Assembly (NCBI GenBank): GCA_025363475.1
Contig: JANYDS010000093.1
Span: 1 to 45,701 of the forward strand
Source: Terriglobia bacterium
GTDB lineage: Bacteria > Acidobacteriota > Terriglobia > Bryobacterales > Bryobacteraceae
Direction of reading: 5' to 3'
DNA: 45,701 bases
The first letter of the stretch is position 1, and each line of letters starts with the position of its first letter. The notes under the pieces were generated by a model that saw only the letters and a program-made list of their open reading frames with translations, was not told where the DNA came from and searched no databases. A program made the position numbers and the translations under genes. This document shows positions 9,378 to 33,241 of this stretch, one piece after another.

Positions 9378-10363
9378 CCGGTCTGCTGGGCCTCTTTCCT
9401 TCGTTTGAATCGTCCGTTTTCGGGGGCGTTCAGGAAACCGGTCGGCAGGCTTGGTCCGTACTCAAAAATCAGTCGGCTCTTGATGCGAAAGCCTTTCTAT
9501 ACGAGGCGGGCACTTCCCGGGTTTCCGCGGCGGCGGATGCGCTCAGGTGTCGGTCAAAAGTCGATACCTTGCTGGTCTGGCACTGCGGCCTGTTGAAACT
9601 GACTCCATTTATCGCCAGTTCCATACGTCGTCGCGTTGTCTTTCTGCATGGTATTGAGGCCTGGCACCGGCATGATGCCTTTACTTCATGGCTGCTGCGC
9701 CGCACGCACTTGTTTCTGTCCAACAGCGACTACACCTGGCAGCGTTTTCTGGTGTCGCATCCCGAATGCTCGCAGATTTCCCACCGCACCGTTTCTCTCG
9801 GCTGTGGCGTCCCGCTGGACGAGGTGCCGTCATGCGATGCTGTGCCGGCTGCCATCATGATCGGTCGCATGCAAAAGGGTGAAGATTACAAAGGTCACCG
9901 CGAAATGATCGGGCTTTGGCCCCAGGTTCTTGAATCGATTCCCGCCGCCCGGCTCTGGATCGTGGGGGGTGGGGATCTGCGCCAGGATCTTGAACAACTC
10001 GTTCAAACCGCACGATTAACTGCGAGTGTGACGTTTTTCGGTGCTATCCCGGAAGCCGAAAAGAATGATCTGCTGCGCCGTTGCCGGGTTCTTGCACTCC
10101 CCAGCGCCGGCGAAGGGTTTGGGCTGGTTTATCTCGAAGCCATGCGCATGGGCAAACCTTGCCTGGTGAGCAATATCGACGCGGGCAGGGAAGTCGTAAA
10201 TCCTCCCGAAGCGGGGCTGGTGGCTGACCTCCCTGCAATCCTGCGCCTGCTCAGCGCAGGGTCCGATTGGGACGAAATGTCGGCTCGGGCCAGGCACCGC
10301 TACGATTCAACTTTCACCGAAATGGACTTTCAGAAGCGCCTGCTCGCAGCCCTGGCCGAATGA
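9374..10363 (+). CDS. Family 4 glycosyltransferase (short)
   Basis: A 329-aa GT-B transferase, at the short end for the family. The donor half shows AAIMIGRMQKGEDYKGH, LWIVGGGDLRQDLE and the clear E-x7-E motif in LPSAGEGFGLVYLEAMRMGKPCLVS. The N-terminal half is compact, with HGIEAWHRHDAF near residue 90. ATGA overlaps on both sides place it in the operon. It transfers an unknown sugar. Confidence 0.9.
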   Translation: MTGLLGLFPSFESSVFGGVQETGRQAWSVLKNQSALDAKAFLYEAGTSRVSAAADALRCRSKVDTLLVWHCGLLKLTPFIASSIRRRVVFLHGIEAWHRHDAFTSWLLRRTHLFLSNSDYTWQRFLVSHPECSQISHRTVSLGCGVPLDEVPSCDAVPAAIMIGRMQKGEDYKGHREMIGLWPQVLESIPAARLWIVGGGDLRQDLEQLVQTARLTASVTFFGAIPEAEKNDLLRRCRVLALPSAGEGFGLVYLEAMRMGKPCLVSNIDAGREVVNPPEAGLVADLPAILRLLSAGSDWDEMSARARHRYDSTFTEMDFQKRLLAALAE

Positions 10364-18264: not shown

Positions 18265-18534
18265 ATGCGCACCACGCTCGCAATTGACGATGATATTCTG
18301 GAACTCACAAGAGAGCTGGCTCAACAGCAGGGGCTTTCGCTGGGTTCCGCGTTTAGTTTGTTGGCGAAGAGAGGTTTGGCTGCATCGATGCCGCGCCACA
18401 AGAGGAATGGTTTTGCCGTGTTCGATGTCCCTGACAACCACAGACAAATTGGTCTTGAAGACGTCCAGAAGGCATTGGCGGAAGAGGATGCCGCAGCAGT
18501 AAGTTTGATGACCGGGGAACGGCCGGGCCGGTAA
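18265..18534 (+). CDS. vapB: VapB-type antitoxin (ribbon-helix-helix)
   Basis: An 89-aa antitoxin. The N-terminal RTTLAIDDDILELTRELAQQQGLSLGSA stretch fits a ribbon-helix-helix DNA-binding fold (strand about residues 2-7, helices about 9-21 and 25-36). The C-terminal half (GFAVFDVPDNHRQIGLEDVQKALAEED) is the acidic toxin-neutralising tail typical of VapB. It is 4 bp before the toxin gene and has its own promoter and operator. It should bind VapC and repress its own transcription. It may have almost no leader, see the promoter entry. Confidence 0.88.
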   Translation: MRTTLAIDDDILELTRELAQQQGLSLGSAFSLLAKRGLAASMPRHKRNGFAVFDVPDNHRQIGLEDVQKALAEEDAAAVSLMTGERPGR

Positions 18535-18538
18535 CAGC

Positions 18539-19003
18539 GTGGTCCGGTTACTTGATATCAACATACTGCTGGCGCTGGCCTGGCCGGCACACAAGCACCA
18601 TGGCTTTGCCCACAACTGGTTCGCGCGGAATCAGGCCGGGGGCTGGGCTACCTGTCCGATGACCCAGGCGGGATTCGTACGTCTTTCCATCAATCCGAAT
18701 GTAAGTGAGAGTCTGATTACGGCGGCGGATGCTGTGGAAGTACTGGAGGACAGTATGGCGACAGCGGAACATGTGTTTTGGTCACAGACCGCGCGGATTG
18801 ATGAAATGAGTCCCGAAATCAGGTCACGGATCATGGGTGCACAGCAGTTGAGCGACGCCGTGCTGCTGGAGCTGGCGATTCGGAATGGTGGGGTGCTGGC
18901 GACGCTGGATCAGCGGATTTCCCATTTGCTGGCACCAGGATCTTCGTTGAGGAAGCATTTGGAAATCATTTCGCTCAATGACACGGAATCCAGCCCGTGC
19001 TGA
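18539..19003 (+). CDS. vapC: VapC-type PIN-domain ribonuclease toxin
   Basis: A 154-aa PIN-domain toxin of the subfamily that keeps the signature LLDINILLALAWPAHKHH, CPMTQAGFVRL and QLSDAVLLELAIRNGGVLATLDQ. The acidic residues for metal binding are Asp6, the Asp of QLSDA and the Asp of TLDQ. Such toxins cut tRNA or rRNA when VapB is degraded. The start is GTG at 18539, just 4 bp after vapB. The stop lies 7 bp inside the start of the lasso B2 gene, so toxin translation is coupled to a RiPP maturation gene, which is unusual. No frameshift or missing motif is visible, so the toxin is likely functional. Confidence 0.88.
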   Translation: MVRLLDINILLALAWPAHKHHGFAHNWFARNQAGGWATCPMTQAGFVRLSINPNVSESLITAADAVEVLEDSMATAEHVFWSQTARIDEMSPEIRSRIMGAQQLSDAVLLELAIRNGGVLATLDQRISHLLAPGSSLRKHLEIISLNDTESSPC

Positions 19004-19437
19004 CAGCTTTTCGGAGAAAACTGCGAACCGCGCGCGGGCTTTCAGCGCGGATGATTGTGCTGGCCGGGTTGACGCTGGTGCTGACTGTGGCTGCGCGGCT
19101 GGCTCTGTGGCTGGTGCCCTTTCGGGTGATCCGGCGGGCGGTGGAGTCAGTGGCTCCGGTTTCGTTCCTGCAGGGGAAGGTCACCGCCCGCAACGTTGCG
19201 TGGCTGGTGCACGCAGCAAGTCGCAATGTATTTCGGGCTACTTGTTTAACGCAGGCGCTGACGGCCCAGGTATTGCTCAACGGGGCGGGGTTGAAAAATC
19301 AGGTTCACATTGGAGTGGTAATGGGTGAAGGCTTTGAATCGCATGCATGGGTTGAGTGCGAGGGCCGGGTCTTGATCGGCGGGGCGGAACAAAGCGCCCG
19401 GTATTCGAAACTGCTGACACTGGAAGGCCGACCCTAG
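18997..19437 (+). CDS. Lasso peptide biosynthesis B2 protein (leader protease)
   Basis: A 146-aa transglutaminase-fold cysteine protease that removes the leader peptide before ring closure. The catalytic Cys83 is in RNVFRATCLTQALTAQVLL and His116 in FESHAWVE. The usual third residue, an Asp, is not obvious in the following CEGRVLIGGAEQSARY segment, so the triad may be completed differently. A hydrophobic segment at residues 19-42 suggests membrane attachment. GTG start at 18997 overlaps vapC by 7 bp. It works with the RRE protein encoded at 19621. Family assignment is firm. Confidence 0.9.
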   Translation: MLTAFRRKLRTARGLSARMIVLAGLTLVLTVAARLALWLVPFRVIRRAVESVAPVSFLQGKVTARNVAWLVHAASRNVFRATCLTQALTAQVLLNGAGLKNQVHIGVVMGEGFESHAWVECEGRVLIGGAEQSARYSKLLTLEGRP

Positions 19438-19620: not shown

Positions 19621-19911
19621 ATGACTCGCATGTTGAAAATAACCCTCGCATCACGCGTAAAGCTCAGTGAAGATGTGCTGATGCAGGAGTTGCAAGGCGA
19701 AGCCGTGTTGTTACATTTGCAGACCGGTGTCTATTTTGGGTTGGATCAGGTAGGAACGAGAATCTGGGTGCTCCTTGGCGAAAAAAAGGTGATCGGCGAC
19801 GCTGTTGAAGCGATGACGGCGGAGTTTGACGTATCGATGGAGCGGTGCGCTGAAGACACGCTCGCGCTCGTGTCTAAACTACAGGAACAGGGATTGCTCG
19901 AAATCGAGTGA
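19621..19911 (+). CDS. Lasso peptide B1 protein: PqqD-like RiPP recognition element
   Basis: A 96-aa stand-alone RRE (PqqD family) that binds the precursor leader and delivers it to the protease. The fold is visible as three beta strands (VKLSEDVLMQELQGEAVLLHLQTGVYFGLD) followed by helices with the typical VGTRIWVLLGEKKVIGDAVEAM and VSKLQEQGLLEIE ending. ATG 19621 has AGGAT 9 bases upstream; a second ATG at 19630 is possible. The gene is 37 bp before the cyclase gene. Together with B2 it forms the split B1/B2 protease. Confidence 0.9.
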   Translation: MTRMLKITLASRVKLSEDVLMQELQGEAVLLHLQTGVYFGLDQVGTRIWVLLGEKKVIGDAVEAMTAEFDVSMERCAEDTLALVSKLQEQGLLEIE

Positions 19912-19948: not shown

Positions 19949-21784
19949 GTGAGCGGGTTCGTCGGCATCGTCAATCCGGATGAAATGCCGGTGGACAGGG
20001 ATCTGCTTTGGCAGCTCACGCGGTCCGTCGCCTACAGGGGGCCAGCTGCGGAGGATGTTTGGATACAGGGCAGAGTTGGATTCGGACACACGATGCTTCG
20101 GTCAACGGTCGAGGCCGATACCGAAAAGCAACCCTGCACGCTGGACGGTGACGCCTGGATTACAGCAGATTGCCGAATCGATGACCGTGCGCGGCTGGTT
20201 GGTGAGCTGGTCAGTGGCGGCCGGTCCTGCACGGTTGCAACCTCCGATCCGGAATTGATTTTGCATGCCTGGGCGGTTTGGGGCGCAGACTGCGTGCAGC
20301 ATCTGTTGGGCGATTTCGCCTTTGCCATCTGGGATCGCAGAACGAGCAGCCTATTTTGCGCACGAGACCACATGGGCATCAAGCCCTTCTACTACTCACC
20401 CGCGGGAGCCTGTCTTGTTTTCGGTAACACCTTGAATAGTCTGCGTCTACACCCGTCAGTGTCGGACCGACTGAACGACCTTGCTATTGGTGACTTTCTT
20501 CTGTTTGGATTGAACCAAGATCCGGGAACGACAAGTTTTCGTGACATTAGCAGATTGCCCGCTGCTCATACGCTGGCCTGGCAGGATGGCAGGCTCGACA
20601 TTTGCCGCTACTGGACTATGCCGATTGATCCGCCGCTGCGGATGCCGAAGAGGAATGACTATGTGGAGTATTTCCTTGAACTGCTGCGCACGGCAATCCG
20701 CGACCGTTTGAGGGTGAGTTCTGTTGGGATTTTTATGAGCGGAGGCTTGGATTCAACAGGTTTGGCCGCTGTCTCGAAGGAGCTGGCAGGGGTGCCGCCG
20801 ATGCTTGATGTCTCGGCCCATACCGTTGTCTATGACCGGATCGTCCCCGACGAGGAACGGTACTATGCAGGCCTGGTGGCAAGGCATCTGGGAATGAGTA
20901 TTAGCTTCTATCCCATAGATGACGACGATTTCTACCCACATGACGGGGGCTTTCAGCCGCCTCCGGCGGACCCCGCCTTCATATCTGAAACAGGACCGCA
21001 GACGTACTCCAGGGAATTGCGCGGCATCGGTCAGAAATCATGTGTCGCGTTTTATGGCGAAGGTCCAGATAACGCGCTTACCTACGAATGGAAGACGTAT
21101 GTGGCGCGTGAACTGGAACGTGGAAGACTCGGCAGCATCATGCTGGAGTTTGCCTCTTTTCCTTTCCTGTTCGGCGACTTGCCGTTTTCGAAACGGCTGG
21201 GCCGCAAAAAACACGCCGACAAAGAACTTAGCGCGGGGATGAGTTTTCCCTCATGGCTAAACAGAGATTTTGAGCGGCGCTTTCACCTGCGGGAAAGATT
21301 CGCGGCCGGGGGGATTCCGATGCAATCCGAAGTGCATCCTTACCGACCCGTTGGGTACGCTTCTTTTCAGAACCAGTTGTGGTCGTTGTTGTTTGAACGG
21401 TTGGATCCAGGAGTTACCGGAATTCCCGTAGAGGTGAGACATCCGTATCTCGATATCAGAGTGCTTCGGTTTCTCCTTGCGTTGCCCGTCCTGCCATGGT
21501 GTCGCGACAAATACCTGCTGCGGCATGCGCTGCGAAACCGGTTGCCGGCGGTGGTTGTTGCGCGTCCTAAGTCTCCGGGATTACCAGTTTTGGAATTGGA
21601 GCGTCGTTTCCCGGAACGCGTCGCCAGTGAGGTTTTTGCCCAAGAGTCGATTCTTTGCGAATATGTCAGTCATTCCGCTCTTCAGGTTATTGCCAAAGAT
21701 CCGCTGGATTTGTACTTCGTCAATCTTCGCCCGCTCACTTTGGGTTTCTTCTTGCGAAGTTCCTCCCGCCCATGCATAATATAA
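19949..21784 (+). CDS. Lasso peptide cyclase (asparagine synthetase-like)
   Basis: A 611-aa protein that activates the side-chain carboxylate of an Asp or Glu in the core with ATP and joins it to the core N-terminus. It has an N-terminal glutamine-amidotransferase-like domain (residues 1-200) and a C-terminal ATP-pyrophosphatase domain with SGGLDST at about 264-270. The N-terminus reads MSGFVGIV, so the Cys2 needed for glutamine hydrolysis is Ser, as expected for a cyclase that uses an amine and not ammonia. GTG start at 19949. It precedes the precursor gene by 27 bp. Confidence 0.92.
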   Translation: MSGFVGIVNPDEMPVDRDLLWQLTRSVAYRGPAAEDVWIQGRVGFGHTMLRSTVEADTEKQPCTLDGDAWITADCRIDDRARLVGELVSGGRSCTVATSDPELILHAWAVWGADCVQHLLGDFAFAIWDRRTSSLFCARDHMGIKPFYYSPAGACLVFGNTLNSLRLHPSVSDRLNDLAIGDFLLFGLNQDPGTTSFRDISRLPAAHTLAWQDGRLDICRYWTMPIDPPLRMPKRNDYVEYFLELLRTAIRDRLRVSSVGIFMSGGLDSTGLAAVSKELAGVPPMLDVSAHTVVYDRIVPDEERYYAGLVARHLGMSISFYPIDDDDFYPHDGGFQPPPADPAFISETGPQTYSRELRGIGQKSCVAFYGEGPDNALTYEWKTYVARELERGRLGSIMLEFASFPFLFGDLPFSKRLGRKKHADKELSAGMSFPSWLNRDFERRFHLRERFAAGGIPMQSEVHPYRPVGYASFQNQLWSLLFERLDPGVTGIPVEVRHPYLDIRVLRFLLALPVLPWCRDKYLLRHALRNRLPAVVVARPKSPGLPVLELERRFPERVASEVFAQESILCEYVSHSALQVIAKDPLDLYFVNLRPLTLGFFLRSSSRPCII

Positions 21785-21811: not shown

Positions 21812-21958
21812 ATGAAAATAGCGACAGAAGACCCGAAGTCTGTGTACACCACCCCACGTTTTGAGCGGTATGGCGATGTGCGGGAGTTGACCAAGTCGAT
21901 AGGTAATCACGGCGGGAAAGACGGCAAGGCCGTAACTATCAATCGAACCCAGGCATAG
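21812..21958 (+). CDS. Lasso peptide precursor (48 aa)
   Basis: A small gene between the cyclase and kinase genes. The leader holds the lasso RRE-binding pattern: Tyr12 and Pro15 (YTTP), Arg16-Phe17, then Gly21, Val23 and GluLeuThr at 25-27. Thr27 is the conserved penultimate leader residue, so cleavage should follow Lys28. The core is then residues 29-48: SIGNHGGKD, then GKAVTINRTQA. Asp37 is core position 9, so a nine-residue Ser1-Asp9 macrolactam is predicted, with an 11-residue tail. Ser at core position 1 is uncommon but known (streptomonomicin). The core is polar, with no bulky aromatic residue to lock the thread; His5, Lys8, Lys11 and Arg17 make it basic. Product and activity are unknown. 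Confidence 0.88.
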   Translation: MKIATEDPKSVYTTPRFERYGDVRELTKSIGNHGGKDGKAVTINRTQA

Positions 21959-22026: not shown

Positions 22027-23055
22027 ATGATCCAAGAAGATGCAGGTGCAGGCTGGGGCTATGAGCTTTTTGGCCTTTATTTGTGGTGTGAAACAGACAT
22101 TCCGGGCTTGCAGCGCCGTCCGCCGAAAGTCGATCTGCCCGAATTCAGGCTTCATTCTGGATCTCTGCCGCTGGATTTTGATCCGGAACAGTACCCGGAT
22201 CGTTGGTATGAGACGGATTACAAGTCTGAATCGGGAGAGCCCTTCTTTGTGATTGAAGCCTCTCTTGATCGGCCCGCCTCTTACTGGTTCAGGTATATTG
22301 ACGAACACTCAGTAAACGTCATCGCGAATGCAGCGAGCCGTGACATTTGGCTGACGTGGGCCGCGGGCTCTTCACTTGAGGATGCACTCACTTATCTGCT
22401 GGGGCCAGTCCTAACGCTGTTCTGTCAGATACTGGGCGTATTTTGCCTTCATGGTAGTGCAGTCGCCATCGATGGCAAGATGATTGCGCTGCTGGGTTAC
22501 CCGGGTGCTGGGAAATCGACGACAGCTGCGGCTTTCGCGGGTGCGGGATTTCCAATCGCTGCGGATGATGTCGTCCTGCTGTCTCCAGCTCTGGTTGGGT
22601 TTTCGGTCGCCCCATCCTACCCCGTGCTGCGGTTGTGGCCTTCTTCGGTCGAGATATTCTACGGAGATGGAGAGGCGCTGCCACGCTTGAGCCCCAGTTG
22701 GGAAAAAAGAGGACTCAATCTGGACGGCGGCGGATATCGATATCAATCTGAATCATTGCCGCTGGGCGCTATCTACATTTTGGGGGAGCGCAGCGATCAG
22801 GACGCCCCGCGTGTCGAGCCGGTGTCGGGTGTTGGCGCTGTCCTGGCTATGATTCCTCACTCCTGGGCTCGAAGCATGAATGCACTGGACCAGCGAACTC
22901 GGCAGTTTCGGGTTTTGGGGCAACTGTCTCAATGTACGCCGATACGCCAATTGGTGGCACATCAGGACTCTTCTCGTATTGCGGGACTGTGTCAATTGAT
23001 CGTTGCAGATCTGGCTGAGCTTGGAATTGGCTCAGGTGCCGCATTTGAACCTTAA
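22027..23055 (+). CDS. HPr kinase-like peptide kinase of the lasso cluster
   Basis: A 342-aa protein with an N-terminal domain of about 130 residues and an HprK-like P-loop kinase domain: LHGSAVAIDGKMIALLGYPGAGKST, Walker A at about residues 157-165, then AADDVVLLSP for metal and phosphate binding. Such HprK homologues in lasso clusters (for example the paeninodin type) phosphorylate a C-terminal Ser of the precursor. Here the precursor ends in Ala, so Thr42 or Thr46 is the more likely target. The gene starts 68 bp after the precursor, past a small GGGTG/CACCC hairpin (21990-22005), which could favour a higher precursor-to-enzyme ratio. Confidence 0.85.
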   Translation: MIQEDAGAGWGYELFGLYLWCETDIPGLQRRPPKVDLPEFRLHSGSLPLDFDPEQYPDRWYETDYKSESGEPFFVIEASLDRPASYWFRYIDEHSVNVIANAASRDIWLTWAAGSSLEDALTYLLGPVLTLFCQILGVFCLHGSAVAIDGKMIALLGYPGAGKSTTAAAFAGAGFPIAADDVVLLSPALVGFSVAPSYPVLRLWPSSVEIFYGDGEALPRLSPSWEKRGLNLDGGGYRYQSESLPLGAIYILGERSDQDAPRVEPVSGVGAVLAMIPHSWARSMNALDQRTRQFRVLGQLSQCTPIRQLVAHQDSSRIAGLCQLIVADLAELGIGSGAAFEP

Positions 23056-23211: not shown

Positions 23212-23919
23212 ATGAAGTTCAAATTATTCGCCCTGCCCGTTCTGCTCACTTTGTCTACTGTGGGTATGAAGGCAGCAACTATCGTTCTGACGTTTGAAGG
23301 CGTCCAGGACGGTGAATACGTCCAGAATTTTTACAATGGCGGTACAGCTAGCCTAGGCAGTTCTGGGACAAACTACGGCATTTCCTTCGGTTCGGACACG
23401 CTCGCGGTTAGGGATTATCAGACCTACGGTAATGGAAATACCGCCAACGATCCGTCTGGTACGACTACGATCGCCTTTCTCGCGGGCGCGGCGACCATGA
23501 ATGTAGCGGCGGGCTTTGATACCGGTTTCTCTTTTTTCTACGCGGCACCTTTTGCTACCGGCAGTGTCAATGTATATGACGCTGTTGGCGGCGCCACCGG
23601 CGGCGGTAACCTTCTTGCCACGATTTCGCTCCCAACGACTGTGAATGGCGGACTCGATTTGGGGACCTACCCGGCTTGCGTCGATACGAACGGCGATCCG
23701 GTAGATTTCTGTCCCTGGTTTAATGTCGGCGTGGCGTTTTCTGGTATCGCAAAGTCGGTCGACTTTGGGGGCTCGGTTAACCAGGCCGCTTTTGACAATA
23801 TCACGCTGGGTTCTAACGTCGCCATTGATACCAACGGCATACCTGAGCCGGCAACATTTTTGCTAATCGGTTCTGGTCTAATCGCACTCGCTTCCTTCCG
23901 GCGCAAACTAGTCGCTTAG
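23212..23919 (+). CDS. Secreted PEP-CTERM sorting domain protein
   Basis: A 235-aa exported protein. A signal peptide (MKFKLFALPVLLTLSTVGMKA) is followed by a Gly/Thr/Ser-rich beta-type domain. At the C-terminus, PEPATF, a hydrophobic segment (LLIGSGLIALASF) and RRK form a PEP-CTERM tag, which an exosortase cuts while passing the protein to the surface. A strong AGGAGGAG ribosome site and an AT-rich 156-bp leader with short palindromes (TAGTA..TACTA near 23166-23177) suggest its own promoter. Two or three cysteines (YPACVD, DFCPW) might form a disulfide. The exosortase is not in the window. The domain itself is not recognised. Confidence 0.85.
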   Translation: MKFKLFALPVLLTLSTVGMKAATIVLTFEGVQDGEYVQNFYNGGTASLGSSGTNYGISFGSDTLAVRDYQTYGNGNTANDPSGTTTIAFLAGAATMNVAAGFDTGFSFFYAAPFATGSVNVYDAVGGATGGGNLLATISLPTTVNGGLDLGTYPACVDTNGDPVDFCPWFNVGVAFSGIAKSVDFGGSVNQAAFDNITLGSNVAIDTNGIPEPATFLLIGSGLIALASFRRKLVA

Positions 23920-23950
23920 GTTAGCTGATTTACGACCGTCCGCGTTCAAG

Positions 23951-23992
23951 ATCCAGCACTTCCGCATGCATAATGCGCAAGCGCTGGATTTT
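23951..23992 (+). terminator. Rho-independent terminator-like hairpin after the PEP-CTERM gene
   Basis: ATCCAGC (23951-23957) pairs with GCTGGAT (23983-23989), and inside it CGCAT (23963-23967) pairs with ATGCG (23973-23977), giving a two-part hairpin. A run of four T follows directly (23989-23992). It lies 32 bp after the stop of the PEP-CTERM gene. Confidence 0.55.
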
Positions 23993-24048
23993 ATGCGTCC
24001 GGCCTGAAATATCTGATTTTTGAGTCGTTACGAAGCTCAGGTATAAAT

Positions 24049-25089
24049 ATGTCCCCACCTTCTGCCCGGATTCCCACGCTCGATGGTTGGCGAACAATAG
24101 CCATCGCAATGGTGCTCCTCAGTCATGGGGCGCAAGATATTTTCCCGGACAGTCGGTTCTTAGGCGGAATCGGCAGCCAGGGCGTTCTTCTCTTTTTTGC
24201 TATTAGCGGCTACCTAATTACTATGCTCCTGCTAATGGAACTGGAGCAACGAGGGCGGGTCCGAATTGGCGCCTTCTATCTAAGACGCGCTTTTCGGCTC
24301 CTGCCAGCGGCGTCGGTATACCTTGGCTCCCTTTGCGTGCTCGCGGCGTTCGGTGGAATAGCAATCTCCGGTGGAGAGATTGTTGCCGCGCTTTTTCTTT
24401 ACACGGACTATTGGCTCAAGGCATCCTGGTACACGTCACATTTTTGGTCCCTGGCTGTTGAAGGGCACTTCTATATTGTTTGGCCACTGATCCTCGCCGC
24501 CGGGATGAAAAAGGCCCTCCTGGCCGCTCTTATCGTGGTGATCGCAACGCTAATCTGGCGACCGTTCGGCGAGAAACTGCACCTCTCAAATCTTGTATTT
24601 CAAAGAACAGACCTTCGCCTTGACAGTTTTGGCTTCGCTTGTCTCGCTGCAATCCTCTCCTATCAAAAAAAACTATCCTGGCTGGCTGAGTGGTGGCTCC
24701 TACCGATTAGTGTGGGGACGGCGCTGATCATAGTCATGATTCCGCATGAGTTGGATAACCTCCGCGAAGGGGGGCGCGCCGCAATCGCCACGCTTCTGGT
24801 AGCCGGGACAGTCGCACGCCCCCATGGCGTGTTGGCCCGCCTGCTGGAGCTAGGCTTGATGAGAGGTATTGGTCGAATCTCGTACAGCGTATATCTTTGG
24901 CAGCAGGTGGTGTTCACAGACGTAATCCGACTTCCACCCGGAGCCAAGTTGCTCGTGATTTTTGGCATCGCGTGGTTGAGTTATAGCTGGTTCGAAGTTC
25001 CTTTCATCGGGTTAGGCCGAAAACTGAACCTGTTCCTGGAGCGGGACAGCGAATCCGGGATCGCTGCGCCATCTACCGATGTTGCGTGA
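24049..25089 (+). CDS. Acyltransferase family 3 membrane protein (OafA/YrhL-like)
   Basis: A 346-aa integral membrane acyltransferase with about ten helices. IPTLDGWRTIAIAMVLLSHG gives the conserved His of the family, then FFAISGYLITMLLLMELEQRGRVRIGAFYLRRAFRLLPA and the WSLAVEGHFYIVWPL motif. Such enzymes move an acetyl or similar group from the cytoplasm onto periplasmic sugars, or sometimes onto small molecules. It has no fused SGNH domain. It overlaps the next gene by 11 bp. Its target may be the surface glycan or a RiPP-locus product; the sequence does not decide. Local GC is low (about 42% in one line I counted). Confidence 0.9.
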   Translation: MSPPSARIPTLDGWRTIAIAMVLLSHGAQDIFPDSRFLGGIGSQGVLLFFAISGYLITMLLLMELEQRGRVRIGAFYLRRAFRLLPAASVYLGSLCVLAAFGGIAISGGEIVAALFLYTDYWLKASWYTSHFWSLAVEGHFYIVWPLILAAGMKKALLAALIVVIATLIWRPFGEKLHLSNLVFQRTDLRLDSFGFACLAAILSYQKKLSWLAEWWLLPISVGTALIIVMIPHELDNLREGGRAAIATLLVAGTVARPHGVLARLLELGLMRGIGRISYSVYLWQQVVFTDVIRLPPGAKLLVIFGIAWLSYSWFEVPFIGLGRKLNLFLERDSESGIAAPSTDVA

Positions 25090-26860
25090 GGCCTATCTTG
25101 AGGAGCACGAACGACTCCGGTTCGAGCGCAATCGCGAATTCGAACTTGAGACAGGAGTTTTGGAGGCGCAGATTGCCAAAGGGCCTGCAGGCCCGACTCA
25201 GTTCGCGGAACTAATCCGGAGACTCGCTCCCCCAGCAGCCCAAGTGGTATTGCGCAATGCCAGGCGCCACTTCGTCCATTCGGGCACTAGCTCTGCCTCC
25301 CCGGAACACGCCTACATCAACGTTCTGATCGAGCACCATAAGATCGTAGCTGCTGCGCGGGCAGTAAGGGCAGCCCTGGTCCGGTTTCCCGACGATCTGT
25401 TGCTTCGGATCAAGGATGCTCTACTATTACCAGCGGTCTACAAAAACAGCCGCCAGTTGCTGCACTGGCGAACGAGATTTAGCCGGCGGCTGGACGTTCT
25501 TGTGACGGGGCTAAAACTGGACGGTCCCGCCGCGACCCAAGCCGCAGCCAATGCCATTCATCAATGGGACAATTTCGAGTTAGCTTATCAGGCAAGAAAC
25601 GACCGGGATTTACAACGACGCTATGGTGGCCTTGTGCATGGAATATTATCTGCGGCCCATCCCGAGCTGATGGCATCGGCTGACGTTCCGCCAATACCCT
25701 CCAACGGAAAAATTCGTGTAGGCTACATATCTGCTAATTTACAGCGCCACAGTGTAGCCAAATCCCATGCGGGCTGGATACCAGGCCGCAATTCAACAGC
25801 AGCTGAGGTCTTCTGTTACCAAATTGGTGGTTCTGAAAGCGAAACCAGGGACGAAGTGCGGGACGCCAGCGATAACTTCCGCCACCTTCACGGTGGATTT
25901 GAGGCATGCAGCAAAATCATCCGCGCTGATGAACTTCACGCGGCCATATTCCTTGATGTAGGAATGGATCCTGTAATGGCGCTGCTGGCCTCAGCAAGGC
26001 TAGCCCCAGTTCAACTAGTGAGTTGGGGGCACCCAGTCACCACGGGTTCACCCAGCATCGACTATTACCTTTCCAGTGAACTGATGGAGCCTGCCGATGG
26101 CGATGCACAATATACCGAAAGACTCATCCGGCTGCCGGGCATCGGCGTAAACTACAGGAAGCCACTTATCCCCCGCCCACTAGTGGACAGCAGTCGGGCT
26201 CGTTTTGGGTTGCGAGGCGACAGCATCGTTTATCTTTGCTGCCAATCCACATTCAAGTATCTGCCTGCACATGACGACATCTTCGCAAGAATTGCCAAGG
26301 GTCTACCCAATGCGCAATTCGTGTTTCTGGTTGGCAACCCCAATTGGAAACCAGTGTTCCAGGAGCGACTCGACTTGGCATTCGGCGCTGTGGGACTGTC
26401 CGCTCGGGACTATTGCGTCCTCTTGCCGCGCGTCGGTACGGTCGACTTCTGGGGATTGAACCTCACGTCTAACGTCTATCTCGACTCATTGGGATGGTCG
26501 GGTTTTAATACGACGATGGAGGCGATCGCCTGCGGGTTGCCAATCGTGACTCTTGCGGGGAATTCGATGCGTGGCAGACACGGGTATGCAATTCTAACCC
26601 AACTCGGGATTCCGGAAACAATCGCCAACACAAAAAATGAATACGTCCAAATAGCGCTACGGCTGGGAACTGACGGCCAGTGGCGAAAAGAAATAAATCA
26701 ACGAACTATTGAAGGGCACCAACGGTTGTATTCCGATCGCCGTTCGGTAGTTGCGCTGGAGACGTTTGTCGCGGATGAGGTTAGGCTTGCTGTGCAACGA
26801 GCAGCAACTCACGGTACAAGCGAAATGCCGCATTCACAGGCCCCATCCCGGAACTCGTAA
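25079..26860 (+). CDS. GT41 family (SPINDLY/OGT-like) glycosyltransferase
   Basis: A 593-aa protein. Residues 1-210 are alpha-helical and TPR-like but without clear repeat copies. The rest is the GT41 catalytic region: KIRVGYISANLQRHSVAKSH, LDVGMDPVMALLASARLAPVQLVSWGHPVTTGSPSIDYYLSSE, QSTFKYLPAHDDIFARI and LDSLGWSGFNTTMEAIACGLPIVTLAG. Relatives put GlcNAc or fucose on Ser/Thr of proteins, or in bacteria on surface proteins. It starts inside the acyltransferase gene. Its 3' end overlaps the converging methyltransferase gene by 52 bp. Candidate acceptors are Thr residues of the lasso core or the PEP-CTERM protein; both are guesses. Confidence 0.88.
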   Translation: MLREAYLEEHERLRFERNREFELETGVLEAQIAKGPAGPTQFAELIRRLAPPAAQVVLRNARRHFVHSGTSSASPEHAYINVLIEHHKIVAAARAVRAALVRFPDDLLLRIKDALLLPAVYKNSRQLLHWRTRFSRRLDVLVTGLKLDGPAATQAAANAIHQWDNFELAYQARNDRDLQRRYGGLVHGILSAAHPELMASADVPPIPSNGKIRVGYISANLQRHSVAKSHAGWIPGRNSTAAEVFCYQIGGSESETRDEVRDASDNFRHLHGGFEACSKIIRADELHAAIFLDVGMDPVMALLASARLAPVQLVSWGHPVTTGSPSIDYYLSSELMEPADGDAQYTERLIRLPGIGVNYRKPLIPRPLVDSSRARFGLRGDSIVYLCCQSTFKYLPAHDDIFARIAKGLPNAQFVFLVGNPNWKPVFQERLDLAFGAVGLSARDYCVLLPRVGTVDFWGLNLTSNVYLDSLGWSGFNTTMEAIACGLPIVTLAGNSMRGRHGYAILTQLGIPETIANTKNEYVQIALRLGTDGQWRKEINQRTIEGHQRLYSDRRSVVALETFVADEVRLAVQRAATHGTSEMPHSQAPSRNS

Positions 26861-28041
26861 GTGATGGAAAGTCTACTTCCCGGCTGGACGGCTAGTTGGT
26901 ACGGCAGGATTTCTGTTCTGTTTCGCCACGAATTTTCAGCCGTACTTTCTGCCGGTTCGGTTGACAGCTCATAGTGTTCGCTAAGCTGGCTCCGGAAAAA
27001 AATTACGAGGCCCGTGACTATACCCGCGCGATTGGCCACAGCGGCGGTTGTTGTTGCGATTGAAGTGTCGCGAAAATTCCGCAGATCTGTCCGCGCGAGC
27101 AAAACGGGAGGCGCAAAGGTCTCCCAGTCGCGCGTAATATGTGGCTTCGCGAGAAAATGGGAAGATTTCCCGCTGGCGCATTCCACCAGCGGTCCGAAAT
27201 CAATGCCGTACCACTCCAGCCAGTCGTGTTGAAGCTCAGTACAAAACCGATTCTTGTTGATCTGGGCGGGCGGGATTGAGACGGGAAGTCCCCAGATTTC
27301 AATGGAACGTGGAACCTGTCTGGCGTCAGCCTTCAGAAGGCGCCGCCGCGCATCCAGGGTCACTTCAAGAACCCGCTCAGCGTAAGGATCATTGCCGATG
27401 ATCTCGCTCACGAACAAATCAGCAAGCTCCGGCAAATGAATCTGCGTTGACCAGCCTTCGATGATCGTAATTCGTTCCTGAAGATTGTTGGCCGCAACCA
27501 CCTCTCTGGCAACGCGGCCGATTGCCCCTGCTTCAATCGCGTATACGTGGCGCGCACCCGCCAGAGCAGCCGCAATCGCGAGAACACCGGTTCCGGTTCC
27601 GATATCCAAAACGATGTCGCCAGGAATGATCGTTTCGCGAATGGCGGCAATCAGGCCCTCGGTTCGTTTGCGGTCATTCAGCATTTTAATGTGAATCTGG
27701 GGCTTATCAAAACCTTTGGGCAATTGAGTGAGAGACGGTTCGACGGTGCCGGATTCGTGGAGAATACCCTCAGCCTTTAACTGCAGGATGGTGCTAGTCA
27801 GGTCTTGCCAATCCTGGACTCCGGACGAATTTCTGCTCAGTAATTGCAGTGCCTCCTTTACGGACCGCGGCTGCCTAAAGGCGTCGAGTACGGCGAGGCC
27901 ATTGGCTCCACACCGAATATCACGCCCTCGCCACGCTATGACAATCTCACTGTTGGATCGGACCTGAACCGCAAGATTTGCGGCGCGGCCCAGCCGGCTT
28001 TCGGATCTGATAACGTCAATTGCGGGGGTGGTTTCGTGCAT
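26809..28041 (-). CDS. Protein arginine methyltransferase-like enzyme with N-terminal PqqD-like RRE domain
   Basis: A 410-aa protein. Residues 22-96 resemble PqqD: strands VQVRSNSEIVIAWRGRDIRC, helix GANGLAVLDAFRQPRSVKEALQLL, and TSTILQLKAEGILHE. Next, IHIKMLNDRKRTEGLIAAI and the SAM-binding VLDIGTGTGVLAIAAA (about 144-159) and VYAIE (166-170) match PRMT motifs. The double-E loop is intact: SEIIGNDPYAER has Glu213 and Glu222, 9 apart as in PRMTs. ENSWRNRTEILPYQL stands in for the THW loop. So it should transfer methyl from SAM, probably to a guanidine or similar group of a peptide that its own RRE holds. It is the second gene of a divergent minus-strand pair, 77 bp after its partner. An RRE fused to a PRMT is, as far as I know, not described. 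Confidence 0.75.
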   Translation of the reverse strand: MHETTPAIDVIRSESRLGRAANLAVQVRSNSEIVIAWRGRDIRCGANGLAVLDAFRQPRSVKEALQLLSRNSSGVQDWQDLTSTILQLKAEGILHESGTVEPSLTQLPKGFDKPQIHIKMLNDRKRTEGLIAAIRETIIPGDIVLDIGTGTGVLAIAAALAGARHVYAIEAGAIGRVAREVVAANNLQERITIIEGWSTQIHLPELADLFVSEIIGNDPYAERVLEVTLDARRRLLKADARQVPRSIEIWGLPVSIPPAQINKNRFCTELQHDWLEWYGIDFGPLVECASGKSSHFLAKPHITRDWETFAPPVLLARTDLRNFRDTSIATTTAAVANRAGIVTGLVIFFRSQLSEHYELSTEPAESTAENSWRNRTEILPYQLAVQPGSRLSITYEFRDGACECGISLVP

Positions 28042-29421: not shown

Positions 29422-31215
29422 ATGCTCCGATATATTCATATGCGAGCCTCGCGGGTATCGAAGCGGCTCCCGTTATTGCCGCAGGCCACATTGCTGGTGT
29501 GGCAAGCCGCGCGTGCCTGGTCCATCGGTTGGGTTGCGCTGCTCCTCGCGCGGGGACTTCTGCCGGTAGCACAGGTCTACCTGACCCGCTCCCTGGTGAA
29601 TTCCGTCCTGGCGGCCATGCGCCCCGGCGGAGTTTATGGTCCGGCTATTCGCGATGCCAGTTTCATGGCTGCTGTCCTGCTCGGCATGGAGGCGCTGCGG
29701 ACACTTGAAACCTGGGTTCGAACAGCCCAGGCGGAGCTCGTCCGGAATCACATCAGCCGACTGGTGCAGGAAAAATCCGCTGAAGCCGATCTCGGGTTTT
29801 ACGAAACCCCCGAATTCTTCGATCATCTGCATCGGGCCCGTGCCGAAGCCGCCAGCGTTCCACTAGCGCTGATTGAAAATCTGGGCGGGCTGGCGCAGAA
29901 TGGCATCACGCTGGTGGCGATGGCTGGGGTGCTCACCATGTTCGGCATCTGGCTGCCCGTGGCGCTGGTGGCGAGCGGAGTCCCTGCAATGTATGTGCTG
30001 CTGCATTATGCGGCGCGCAGCCATGCCTGGTCCGTGCGGACCACGTCTGATGACCGCCGCAGCAACTATTACGACTTTGTTCTGACCAGCCGCGAAAATG
30101 CCCCGGAACTGCGGCTGTTCGGGCTGGCCGGGTATTTTCGGTCCAGGTTCGATGCACTGCGCGGGCGGCTGGCTGGTGAACGGATAGATTTGGCGCGTCA
30201 ACAGAGCGTAGCGGAGTTTCTGGCCTCAGCAGCGGCGCTGGGGATTAGCGGACTGGCACTGGCCTGGATGGCGGCACGGGCTGTACGCGGCCAGGCTACG
30301 GCGGGGGATATCGCACTGTTCTATCAGGCGTTTCAACAAGGGTCCGGGCTGGGGCGGACGCTGCTGGGCAACATCGGGCAGATTTATCGGAACAGTCTTT
30401 ATCTGGAAGGGCTGTTTGAGTTTTTGGGGCTGGAAGCCGAGGTGAAGAGTCCCGCACAGGCGAAGGCTTTGCCGGAGGCGCTGCGCCAGGGAATCCGGTT
30501 TCGTGATGTTACGTTCCGCTATCCGGGGAGTGAGCGCAAGGCGCTGGATCGTTTTTCGCTTGAGATCCCCGCTGGCACCGTGGTGGCGATTGTGGGTGAG
30601 AACGGAGCGGGCAAGAGCACTTTGATCAAACTGCTGTGCCGGTTTTATGATCCGGAAGCGGGCAGTGTGGAAGTGGACGGGTTAGATGTCAAAGATGCTG
30701 CGCTGGAGGATCTGCGGGGTCGGATCGCGGTGCTGTTTCAGGACCCTGCCCACTACCATGCAACTGTGGCAGGAAATATTGACCCCGGCGGCAGCGGCCT
30801 GACGGCTGGAATTGAAGCGGCAGCACGCGCGGCAGGGGCGGATACGATTGCAGCGAAATTGCCGCTGGGGTATAGCAATATGCTGGGCCGGTGGTTTGCC
30901 GATGGCGCGGAACTGAGCGGCGGGGAATGGCAACGGATTGCGCTGGCGCGGGCGTTTCTGCGGGCAGCTCCGATGCTGGTGCTGGATGAACCTACGAGCG
31001 CGATGGATCCGTGGAATGAGTCGGACTGGCTGGGTCGCTTCCGAAAGCTGGCTGAAGGGCGGACAACGCTGGTGGTGACACATCGTTTCACCACGGCGCG
31101 GATTGCGGATACGATTGCGGTGATGGCTGGTGGACGGGTTGTGGAATATGGGTCACATGAGGAGTTGCTGGCGCTGGGCGGGCGCTATGCGGCGGGCTGG
31201 CTGGCGCAGCGATGA
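29422..31215 (+). CDS. ABC transporter, fused permease and ATPase (putative lasso peptide exporter)
   Basis: A 597-aa half-transporter of the exporter type. Residues 1-330 carry about six membrane helices; the ATPase follows with Walker A GENGAGKST (about 392-400), the Q-loop in VLFQDPAHYHATV, signature LSGGEWQR (about 497) and Walker B MLVLDEPTSAMD (about 517-528). No C39 peptidase domain is present, as expected when B2 removes the leader. Lasso clusters usually hold such a D-type exporter, which gives export and self-immunity. It starts a three-gene operon with ATGA overlaps. Its distance from the core genes (7 kb) makes the assignment an inference. Start may be ATG 29422 or 29440; neither has a strong ribosome site. 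Confidence 0.88.
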   Translation: MLRYIHMRASRVSKRLPLLPQATLLVWQAARAWSIGWVALLLARGLLPVAQVYLTRSLVNSVLAAMRPGGVYGPAIRDASFMAAVLLGMEALRTLETWVRTAQAELVRNHISRLVQEKSAEADLGFYETPEFFDHLHRARAEAASVPLALIENLGGLAQNGITLVAMAGVLTMFGIWLPVALVASGVPAMYVLLHYAARSHAWSVRTTSDDRRSNYYDFVLTSRENAPELRLFGLAGYFRSRFDALRGRLAGERIDLARQQSVAEFLASAAALGISGLALAWMAARAVRGQATAGDIALFYQAFQQGSGLGRTLLGNIGQIYRNSLYLEGLFEFLGLEAEVKSPAQAKALPEALRQGIRFRDVTFRYPGSERKALDRFSLEIPAGTVVAIVGENGAGKSTLIKLLCRFYDPEAGSVEVDGLDVKDAALEDLRGRIAVLFQDPAHYHATVAGNIDPGGSGLTAGIEAAARAAGADTIAAKLPLGYSNMLGRWFADGAELSGGEWQRIALARAFLRAAPMLVLDEPTSAMDPWNESDWLGRFRKLAEGRTTLVVTHRFTTARIADTIAVMAGGRVVEYGSHEELLALGGRYAAGWLAQR

Positions 31216-32165
31216 AGACACAAAGCCGGGTGCGGGATTTGCTGCTAATCGTTGTTTTCTTCCTGATTTGTTTTGGTCTGGGGTATCCGACCCTGAACCG
31301 GTATGATCCCCGGGCGACGGGCGGACTCGGAGACACAGGTGCCTATTACGACCTGGCGGTTCACGGGGCGCGAGCCGCGCATGATTCGCAGTTAAAGTAC
31401 CGGGTTTTGATTCCGATGCTGTCGCGGCCTGTGACTCGTTTGGCAGCCGGACATATAGGGAGCTGGGAGCCGGTTTTCTTTGGACTGCTGGTGGTGAATT
31501 CGTTTTTTACCGCCATCACGGCGTGGTTACTCGTAGTTGTGGGACGCCGGTTTACAGGGTCTCTGCTGGCGGCATGCTTGTATCTGCTGAATTTCGAGAC
31601 GGCGAATATTCGTGTTTCGGGGATGGTGGATTCAGGCGAGGGGCTGGCGGTGATGGGCATGGTTTGGAGTTTGCTCTCAGGCCGGTTATGGCTGTTGCCG
31701 GTTTGGGGTCTGCTGGGCGCGGCATCGAAGGAAACCTTTGTTCCGATCTGTATGGTTTTTTCGCTGGTCTGGTGGTATTTCGACCGGCGGGTGATGGTGC
31801 TTTCCGCCGGAGTTGCAGCATTCGTGGGGATTGCGGTGTTGCAATCCGCAGTTGCCGGGCATGTGATGTGGCCGTGGGAGTTTGCGGCGGCGCTGGGTCC
31901 ACAGGGAGATCACTGGAGGGCGTTGCGGGAGAATTTGCTGGATCAGAACTTACTGTATTGCATGATTTGGCTGGTGCCTTTGGGGATGCTGCGGTTGAAG
32001 AAATTGCCGGTGGCGTGGATCGCCGCGTGCGCGGCCGCGGTGCTGGTGGATTTTGGGCTGGTGACGTGGCATTTATCGAGCGCAGGGGCGGCGGCGCGGC
32101 CGTTCTTTAGTTTCGCGGGGCCGATGCTGAGTCTTTCGGCTGCGATGTACCTGAGCGAAGAATGA
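31212..32165 (+). CDS. Polytopic membrane protein of unknown function
   Basis: A 317-aa protein with about eight membrane helices. After the first helix comes a polar loop YDPRATGGLGDTGAYYDLAVHG, similar to the acidic first loop of GT-C transferases, followed by KYRVLIPMLSRPVTRLAAGH. A later GAASKETFVPICMVFSLVWWYF segment resembles the ASKE motif common in integral membrane proteins of glycan loci. It lies between the exporter and the nucleotidyltransferase and overlaps both by ATGA. It may be a membrane glycosyltransferase, but with no better evidence I leave it unnamed. Confidence 0.75.
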   Translation: MKTQSRVRDLLLIVVFFLICFGLGYPTLNRYDPRATGGLGDTGAYYDLAVHGARAAHDSQLKYRVLIPMLSRPVTRLAAGHIGSWEPVFFGLLVVNSFFTAITAWLLVVVGRRFTGSLLAACLYLLNFETANIRVSGMVDSGEGLAVMGMVWSLLSGRLWLLPVWGLLGAASKETFVPICMVFSLVWWYFDRRVMVLSAGVAAFVGIAVLQSAVAGHVMWPWEFAAALGPQGDHWRALRENLLDQNLLYCMIWLVPLGMLRLKKLPVAWIAACAAAVLVDFGLVTWHLSSAGAAARPFFSFAGPMLSLSAAMYLSEE

Positions 32166-33241
32166 CGCTGCGGCCTGAAGAAGCTTTGCTGCTGCGCTGT
32201 GCTGCTCCGGGTGAGGCGGGGGCGCTCGACGCAGACGGGATCGACTGGGACCGGCTGTGGGATCTGGCGGAATCGCACAAGCTGCTGCCGCTGGTTTACT
32301 GGCGGCTGAAGCCTGCCTCGATGGAAGAAAGCTTTCGGGCGAATCTGAAGAATTCGCTGCTGCTGACACGGGAACTGGTCCAGGTGATGGATCTGCTGGC
32401 GGCGAACAGGATTCCGATTATTCCTTTTAAGGGTCCGACGCTGGCGCTGCGGGCTTATCGAAATCTGGCGCTGCGGAGTTTTTGCGATCTGGATATTCTG
32501 GTGGGTCGCGAAGATGTTTGGAGGGCGCGCGATGTACTGGAGCGGGCCGGGTATCGGAGCAAGCTGCAGCTGGATGCGGGGCGTGAAGCGGCGTATCTGG
32601 ATTCGTATGACGAAGTGGTGATGTATGGGCCGGACGGGACTACGCTGCTGGAAGTCCACTGGTTTTTTGTGCCGCCACATTTTTGTTTGTCGCTCGATTT
32701 TGCGGATTGCGCGGGAAGGCTGGAACAGTTACCGCTGGGTAACCGGATGCTGCCTTCGCTGCATCGGGAGGATTTGCTGCTGGTGTTGTGTGCGCACGGG
32801 TCGAAACACTGCTGGTCGCATCTGGGTTTGATTTGTGATGTGGCGTGGCTGCTGACTTCGTGTTCTTTTGACTGGGATGCGGTGCTGGGGCGGGCGCGGC
32901 GGATGGGGATTTTGCGAATGGTTCTGGTGGCGCTGGCACTGGCGGAAAAGACGCTGGGCGTGAAGGTGGCGGCGGAGCGGGATGTGGTGGCTGACCGGCT
33001 GGCGGATGAAATTATTGGGACTCTGTTTGGGGATCGGCATGACGAAGGATCGATCATGGACAACGGTTCGCTGCATCTGCGGATGCGCGAACGGTGGCGC
33101 GATAAAGCCCGGTATTTTCTGAAGCTGGCGACGCGACCGGGGGTGGAGGATTGGGAAGTGGTGAATCTGCCTGCTTCTTTGAACTTTTTGTATCGGGTGC
33201 TGCGGTTTCCCCGGCTGGCGGTTAAGTACCTGGTGAAGTAA
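32162..33241 (+). CDS. Nucleotidyltransferase family protein (PF14907 type)
   Basis: A 359-aa protein of the uncharacterised nucleotidyltransferase family often found beside lasso peptide, PqqD or HprK-like genes. The core is NRIPIIPFKGPTLALRAYRNLALRSFCDLDILVGREDVWRARDVLERAGY, with the DLDIL acidic pair of the nucleotidyltransferase fold near residue 103; EVHWFFVPPHF and LCAHGSKHCWSHLGLICDVAWLL follow. The activity is not known for any member to my knowledge. The ATGA overlap puts it in the exporter operon. Its end overlaps by 20 bp the converging gene. Confidence 0.85.
   Translation: MTLRPEEALLLRCAAPGEAGALDADGIDWDRLWDLAESHKLLPLVYWRLKPASMEESFRANLKNSLLLTRELVQVMDLLAANRIPIIPFKGPTLALRAYRNLALRSFCDLDILVGREDVWRARDVLERAGYRSKLQLDAGREAAYLDSYDEVVMYGPDGTTLLEVHWFFVPPHFCLSLDFADCAGRLEQLPLGNRMLPSLHREDLLLVLCAHGSKHCWSHLGLICDVAWLLTSCSFDWDAVLGRARRMGILRMVLVALALAEKTLGVKVAAERDVVADRLADEIIGTLFGDRHDEGSIMDNGSLHLRMRERWRDKARYFLKLATRPGVEDWEVVNLPASLNFLYRVLRFPRLAVKYLVK

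Follow-up and report, generated by a model that had tools for sequence, protein, structure and literature searches.

A candidate leader-guided protein arginine methyltransferase in the lasso peptide gene cluster of a Terriglobia bacterium

Introduction

Protein arginine methyltransferases (PRMTs), of which PRMT6, PRMT1 and PRMT7 are eukaryotic examples, act as dimers and have RG repeats as their classic substrate. Here, we describe P0001, a protein encoded in a 45,701-nucleotide stretch of DNA from a Terriglobia bacterium (phylum Acidobacteriota; GenBank contig JANYDS010000093.1), hereafter the window. P0001 shares the fold, the S-adenosylmethionine (SAM) motifs and the double-E loop with the eukaryotic enzymes; unlike them, it carries a predicted N-terminal recognition element (RRE) of ribosomally synthesized and post-translationally modified peptides (RiPPs) and belongs to a bacterial peptide cluster. 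The single chain of PRMT7 matches the family profile in two places, with a weak match for the second module, which recalls P0001 and the adjacent degenerate PRMT P0002, although these are two separate genes in the window. The predicted fold of the N-terminal domain is like that of RRE-bearing RiPP enzymes, lasso peptide B1 proteins (TbiB1 and TfuB1) and PqqD, whereas its sequence lies under Pfam detection and is fused to a PRMT.

Lasso precursors can be modified by extra enzymes, and the available part of PMC8498205 on lasso tailoring describes C-terminal O-methylation (StspM), HPr-type kinases and nucleotidyltransferases, with no PRMT mentioned there. The window likewise has a kinase and a nucleotidyltransferase, and P0001 differs from StspM, a C-terminal carboxyl methyltransferase, in joining an RRE of its own to a PRMT fold. 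Phosphorylated lasso peptides and precursors from Acidobacteriaceae appear in the available part of PMC10368454. Other new RRE fusions, including those with carbamoyltransferases and glycosyltransferases, are presented in PMC12710340, and the terms "arginine" and "PRMT" are absent from its main text in the part available. The saskemycin preprint PMC12637814, which cites a lasso peptide paper, deals in its available part with SznE-type arginine methyltransferases, which, like P0001, are bacterial and encoded in a biosynthetic cluster (streptozotocin). Unlike P0001, SznE-type enzymes act in pathways to non-ribosomal products, a distinction drawn from their description and not from sequence. To our knowledge, SznE-type enzymes have no RRE.

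The literature searched, beyond whose reach most subscription papers lie, yielded neither an RRE-PRMT fusion nor an arginine-methylated lasso peptide, and within that coverage of few subscription papers the original prediction that no such fusion had been described stands. We propose, with a probability of roughly 0.55, that P0001 serves a lasso peptide cluster as a peptide arginine methyltransferase guided by the leader.

Results

P0001 is encoded on the minus strand (26809–28041) by a single open reading frame of 410 amino acids that starts with ATG and has no internal stop, exactly as first annotated; its identification as an RRE-PRMT fusion comes from this frame, PDB matches and an AlphaFold2 model. 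The PRMT module covers approximately residues 113–400 (26842–27705, minus strand) and was recognized by matches to PDB sequences, profiles and structures. PRMT6 was found in the PDB by phmmer as a match to residues 113–264 (E = 2.7e-24), and a family profile of 23 rows matched PRMT7, 4.2, 8 and 1 (E = 2.3e-48 to 3.8e-45). The AlphaFold2 model has a mean predicted local distance difference test (pLDDT) score of 90.2 and matched PRMT6, 7, 3 and 1 chains at E of approximately 1e-22, so that sequence, profile and predicted structure all give a PRMT fold with a Rossmann domain and a barrel. The double-E loop (27376–27405, minus strand) reads SEIIGNDPYAE in the protein sequence, with Glu213 and Glu222 at a spacing of 9, and the predicted PRMT with an intact double-E loop was thereby borne out. 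We refer to intact RRE-PRMTs as type a and to other PRMTs of lasso-type clusters, such as P0002, as type b. Both glutamates are present in all 28 distinct intact type-a loci; the conservation of Glu213 is partly circular, because it falls within one of the two peptide patterns used for the contig scan described below, and Glu222 lies outside them.

The N-terminal domain (approximately residues 12–97; 27751–28008, minus strand), to which Pfam is blind, was assigned as an RRE because of the Foldseek ranking and the hhalign profile comparison. Its family profile aligned over the full length with a lasso B1/PqqD profile made from 19 lasso B1 proteins (71%, E = 3.6e-5). With trimmed alignments, the hhalign score was 28.2; the best of 200 column shuffles reached 17.6, and two controls with one side reversed gave 15.1 and 13.2. 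Folded alone, the domain has a pLDDT of 88.0, with strands at residues 16–19, 24–27, 33–37 and 40–44 and helices at 46–54, 61–69 and 75–90; the predicted structure has the three-stranded sheet followed by three helices of PqqD-like RREs. In a Foldseek search of the PDB, the first 33 rows were RRE-bearing RiPP proteins, as read from their names, with E values of 2.5e-3 to 0.061 and probabilities of 0.98–1.00. Lasso B1 and PqqD lead these rows, which include TbiB1 with leader, PqqD, TigE, MccB, ThcOx, TfuB1 with leader, a cyanobactin heterocyclase and McbBCD. A profile search of the PDB with the N-terminal domain gave only two matches, both with E > 0.4. The predicted structure thus argues strongly for an RRE. 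Of the PqqD-like domain proposed originally, the profile match and the RRE fold hold up, the latter as a prediction, and recognition as PqqD by Pfam does not. The fusion is real, and its reading as an RRE joined to a PRMT is well supported.

A contig scan of genomes with three orthologues gave 24 loci, and together with searches at the phylum, class and order levels and the window itself there are 28 distinct type-a loci (loci and genomes are designated by L and G numbers, respectively). They span nine or ten phyla and, according to the record titles, belong to Acidobacteria, Cyanobacteria, Brocadiaceae, Gemmatimonadetes, Chloroflexi, Verrucomicrobia, Kiritimatiellae, Bacteroidetes, Gammaproteobacteria and one deltaproteobacterium. 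No relatives of P0001 were found in the viral contigs and plasmids searched. L053, which contains runs of X, was excluded from alignments A2 and A3. We searched for five lasso-type markers (B1, B2, C, kinase and nucleotidyltransferase) with profiles built from the same loci: at least one lies within 10 kb of the type-a gene at 20 of the 28 loci, and at least two kinds at 15. The type-a gene therefore recurs in lasso-type clusters, as is characteristic of a lasso tailoring enzyme. Conserved neighbors of P0001 orthologues outside lasso loci were sought in L033 and L034, and none was found.

The leader peptidase B2 (PF13471) is present in 24 of the 26 type-a genomes tested, the exceptions being G342 (59% complete) and G757. 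In both type-a genomes and backgrounds, PF13471 also picks up some proteins of approximately 500 amino acids that are unlikely to be lasso B2. In the order of G767, 48 of 121 genomes have B2 (eight of them type-a genomes), and Fisher's test of 8/8 type-a genomes against 40/113 others gave p = 4e-4. In the class of G754, the background is 29 of 119 (two of the 29 being type-a genomes), and the comparison of 3/3, with G1003 as the third genome, against 27/117 gave p = 0.014. B2 was found in only one of 14 named control genomes. In 13 of the 26 type-a genomes, B2 shares a contig with the type-a gene at a distance of up to 17 kb, for which we estimate a chance probability of approximately 1.5e-19, assuming approximately 1% per genome. 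The association of type-a genes with lasso-type clusters, recurring across phyla, is strong. In Hahella (L069:10004-10789), the type-a PRMT is reduced to its C-terminal part, the RRE and the first part being absent; a precursor lies nearby, and its core has no arginine.

Two loci are particularly telling. In L060, genes for B1, a precursor, a kinase, an ATP-binding cassette (ABC) exporter, the type-a enzyme and a nucleotidyltransferase follow each other on one strand. Its core, QGQGRGRGRGRGRGRGGGHS, holds six arginines within RG repeats and lacks an Asp or Glu that could close a lasso ring; the precursor, with a YxxP leader, lies between the B1 and kinase genes (L060:2406-2537). C and B2 were not found in this 16.9-kb locus, and B2 occurs elsewhere in the same genome. 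The L060 product is perhaps a RiPP that uses lasso parts without being a lasso peptide. In L058, a YxxP precursor (stop at 9996) ends four bases before the start of the type-a gene (10001); B1, B2, C and kinase were not found on the examined 24 of the 34 kb of this contig.

In the window, P0001 and P0002 lie within the span of a lasso peptide cluster. On the plus strand are the leader peptidase B2 (18997–19437; PF13471), the stand-alone RRE B1 (19621–19911; PF05402, E = 6.2e-18), the lasso cyclase C of the asparagine-synthase family (19949–21784), the precursor with a YxxP leader (21812–21958; core 21896–21955) and an HPr-kinase-like protein (22027–23055). Genes for a PEP-CTERM protein, an acyltransferase and a GT41 (NGT/OGT-like) protein (23212–26860) come next inside the span, followed by P0001 and P0002 on the minus strand and then by an ABC exporter (29422–31215, plus strand), a membrane protein with no assigned Pfam family and a nucleotidyltransferase (32162–33241, plus strand; PF14907). 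The cluster thus has B1, B2, C and a YxxP-leader precursor, with Asp at core position 9, inside the range (7–9) for the ring-closing Asp or Glu. A tblastn search of loci L033–L076 gave no match to the GT41 or PEP-CTERM genes and an acyltransferase match only in L064. Directly before B2, a small open reading frame (18265–18534) and one with a PIN domain (18539–19003; PF01850, E = 5.9e-5) form a toxin-antitoxin-like arrangement (18265–19003).

The window core, SIGNHGGKDGKAVTINRTQA, has a single arginine at position 17 (codon 21944–21946), as stated originally. For comparison, precursors were collected by one rule: a YxxP leader, Thr near −2, a Shine-Dalgarno-like site and a distance of up to 3 kb from a marker gene, with the core starting at Y+17. 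Arginine occurs in nine of ten type-a cores (mean 2.5), in 13 of 20 cores from clusters where no PRMT was found (mean 1.45) and in 10 of 21 from clusters with type b only (mean 0.62). Type a against type b only gave p = 0.046 (counts, p = 0.0008), a weak comparison given that the groups also differ in phylum. The group without a PRMT found comprises 18 loci with 20 cores; some of these loci are on short contigs, beyond whose ends a PRMT could lie, and the L172 core has the same sequence as the L044 core, which belongs to the type-b group. Candidates judged by eye not to be precursors were excluded from the arginine count (L039 at 8413, L058 at 6858, L067 at 13348, L131 at 8165, L173 at 4307, L196 at 3833, L198 at 10494 and L201 at 3352), as were second contig copies (L136 = L058, L138 = L063 and L140 = L054); L069, with its truncated type-a gene and a core lacking arginine, was set apart. 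The ten type-a cores leave out those of L065 and L076, which contain arginine and do not satisfy the uniform rule. Precursors were not found in L134, L129, L066, L067, L073 and others. The arginine counts, and the type-b tail counts given below, were transcribed by hand. Core arginine did not hold up as a marker of PRMT clusters against those without a PRMT found (9/10 against 13/20, p = 0.21). A (K/R)T motif near the core C-terminus (window 21944–21949; cores in L171–L200) recurs among lasso cores of the window's class whether or not their clusters have a detected PRMT, and is possibly read by the kinase.

Adjacent to P0001, and passed over in the original prediction although it bears on the mechanism, is P0002 (28119–29087, minus strand; PRMT_C, E = 1.7e-10), a second PRMT of 322 amino acids without an RRE. 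It has Ser/Ser in place of the two glutamates of the double-E loop, and nothing is aligned at the Arg126 column. Of the 74 rows compared, 70 have Arg at that column; the exceptions are P0002, L069, which is truncated, and the second fragment from each of two split matches. Open reading frames of type b in L035–L051, L137 and L173–L210 make up a second, commoner PRMT-like family of lasso clusters. In lasso-marked loci, the first Glu is Asp in 27 of 30 rows, two are Glu/Glu and P0002 is Ser/Ser; in those with no marker in the stretch, seven of nine are Glu/Glu. The type-b family of lasso clusters probably does something other than arginine methylation. A C-terminal DG..SLEEIA tail is found on 21 of 26 lasso-marked type-b proteins without type a in the locus and on none of four where type a shares the locus (the window, L065, L070 and L138; p = 0.0046). 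Its absence alongside type a suggests that type a may supply what the tail otherwise supplies. The tail was also considered as an RRE, for which the hhalign comparison (8% over 42 columns) gave no clear support, scoring 19.6 where the best of 100 shuffles reached 18.1.

Discussion

We propose a leader-guided mechanism for P0001. Its N-terminal RRE would bind the YxxP leader of the precursor (21812–21958), as the stand-alone B1 does, and would keep the core close to the PRMT site. Glu213 and Glu222 would grip the guanidinium group while SAM donates one or two methyl groups, and the target in the window would be R17, the only core arginine, located in the tail. The substrate of P0001 would be the precursor in its linear form, as for the lasso tailoring enzymes covered in the available part of PMC8498205. 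P0001 perhaps pairs with P0002, the degenerate PRMT without an RRE, in the manner of the two modules of single-chain PRMT7; the missing tail of type-b PRMTs that share a locus with type a speaks for such a pair. The RRE fold, as a prediction, the PRMT fold with its residues, the clustering with lasso genes and the degeneracy of P0002 are supported. Because the RRE-PRMT fusion is combined with a lasso-type link across phyla, leader guidance is the best reading. The original prediction that an RRE directs the PRMT to a RiPP leader holds for the fusion and the lasso link, and its arginine target, Arg17, is plausible. Arginine is the likely target of P0001, and this is the weak step of the proposal; Arg17 itself is a plausible candidate methylation site.

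Several observations weigh against the proposal, and they bear on three alternatives. The alternative that survives best, although we consider it unlikely, is that the RRE does guide P0001 to the lasso precursor but that the enzyme methylates another target there (Lys, His or a carboxylate), the PRMT fold being re-used. In groups that differ in phylum, type-a clusters show no significant enrichment of core arginine over those without a PRMT found (p = 0.21, or 0.077 for the counts), and L055 has an intact type-a enzyme, yet its core lacks arginine. Arg17 lies within NRTQA, and cores from clusters without a PRMT found have RT or KT there as well (NRKTGG, PRTHV and KRRTGA), so that Arg17, as part of the (K/R)T motif, may serve something else. 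The type-b enzymes, with Asp for the first Glu in 27/30 rows and fewer arginines in their cores (10/21), indicate that the fold may serve other chemistry. Against this alternative are the retention of both glutamates at 28/28 type-a loci and the RG-repeat core of L060.

Less probable still is that P0001 acts on a peptide or protein other than the lasso precursor, with its lasso surroundings in the window being incidental. None of the five markers lies within 10 kb at eight of the 28 loci (L056, at a contig edge, L058, L059, L062, L064, L072, L074 and L135), planctomycete-type and ankyrin genes adjoin the type-a gene in L034/L062, and in the window the PRMT pair is on the opposite strand, 3.8–7.4 kb from the kinase, C, B1 and B2, with the PEP-CTERM, acyltransferase and GT41 genes intervening. 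On the other hand, lasso-type genes are present at 20/28 loci, B2 occurs in 24/26 type-a genomes as against approximately a quarter and two fifths of the backgrounds, and a precursor adjoins the type-a gene in L058, itself one of the marker-free loci, and stands in line with it in L060.

That the N-terminal domain is another kind of winged helix and no peptide-binding RRE is very improbable: Pfam PqqD gave no match at E ≤ 1 for P0001 or any of 23 N-terminal domains, the mean column identity is only 38%, and the best Foldseek E value is 2.5e-3, with none below 0.001 and with a ribosomal arginyl hydroxylase (row 34) and a histone methyltransferase (row 39) among later rows, but the first 33 rows are RRE-bearing RiPP proteins by name, the full-length match to the B1 profile exceeds all 200 shuffles, and type-a genes cluster with lasso genes.

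The proposal of leader-guided arginine methylation extends, more tentatively and at somewhat less than even odds, to a cross-phylum class of RRE-guided peptide arginine methyltransferases, some with a pseudo-PRMT, that would methylate lasso and RG-repeat peptides. The type-b PRMTs of lasso clusters, in which Asp mostly replaces the first Glu, give a hint that the PRMT fold hosts a second chemistry. If P0001 acts as proposed, arginine N-methylation would be added to the chemistry of lasso peptides and RiPPs, by two well-known modules joined in a fusion not found in the literature searched, and the enzyme would offer a small system in which to study what directs a PRMT to a single arginine. The L060 precursor with its RG repeats would then directly parallel RGG methylation in eukaryotes, and the RRE-guided class would be a bacterial counterpart of RGG-motif methylation.

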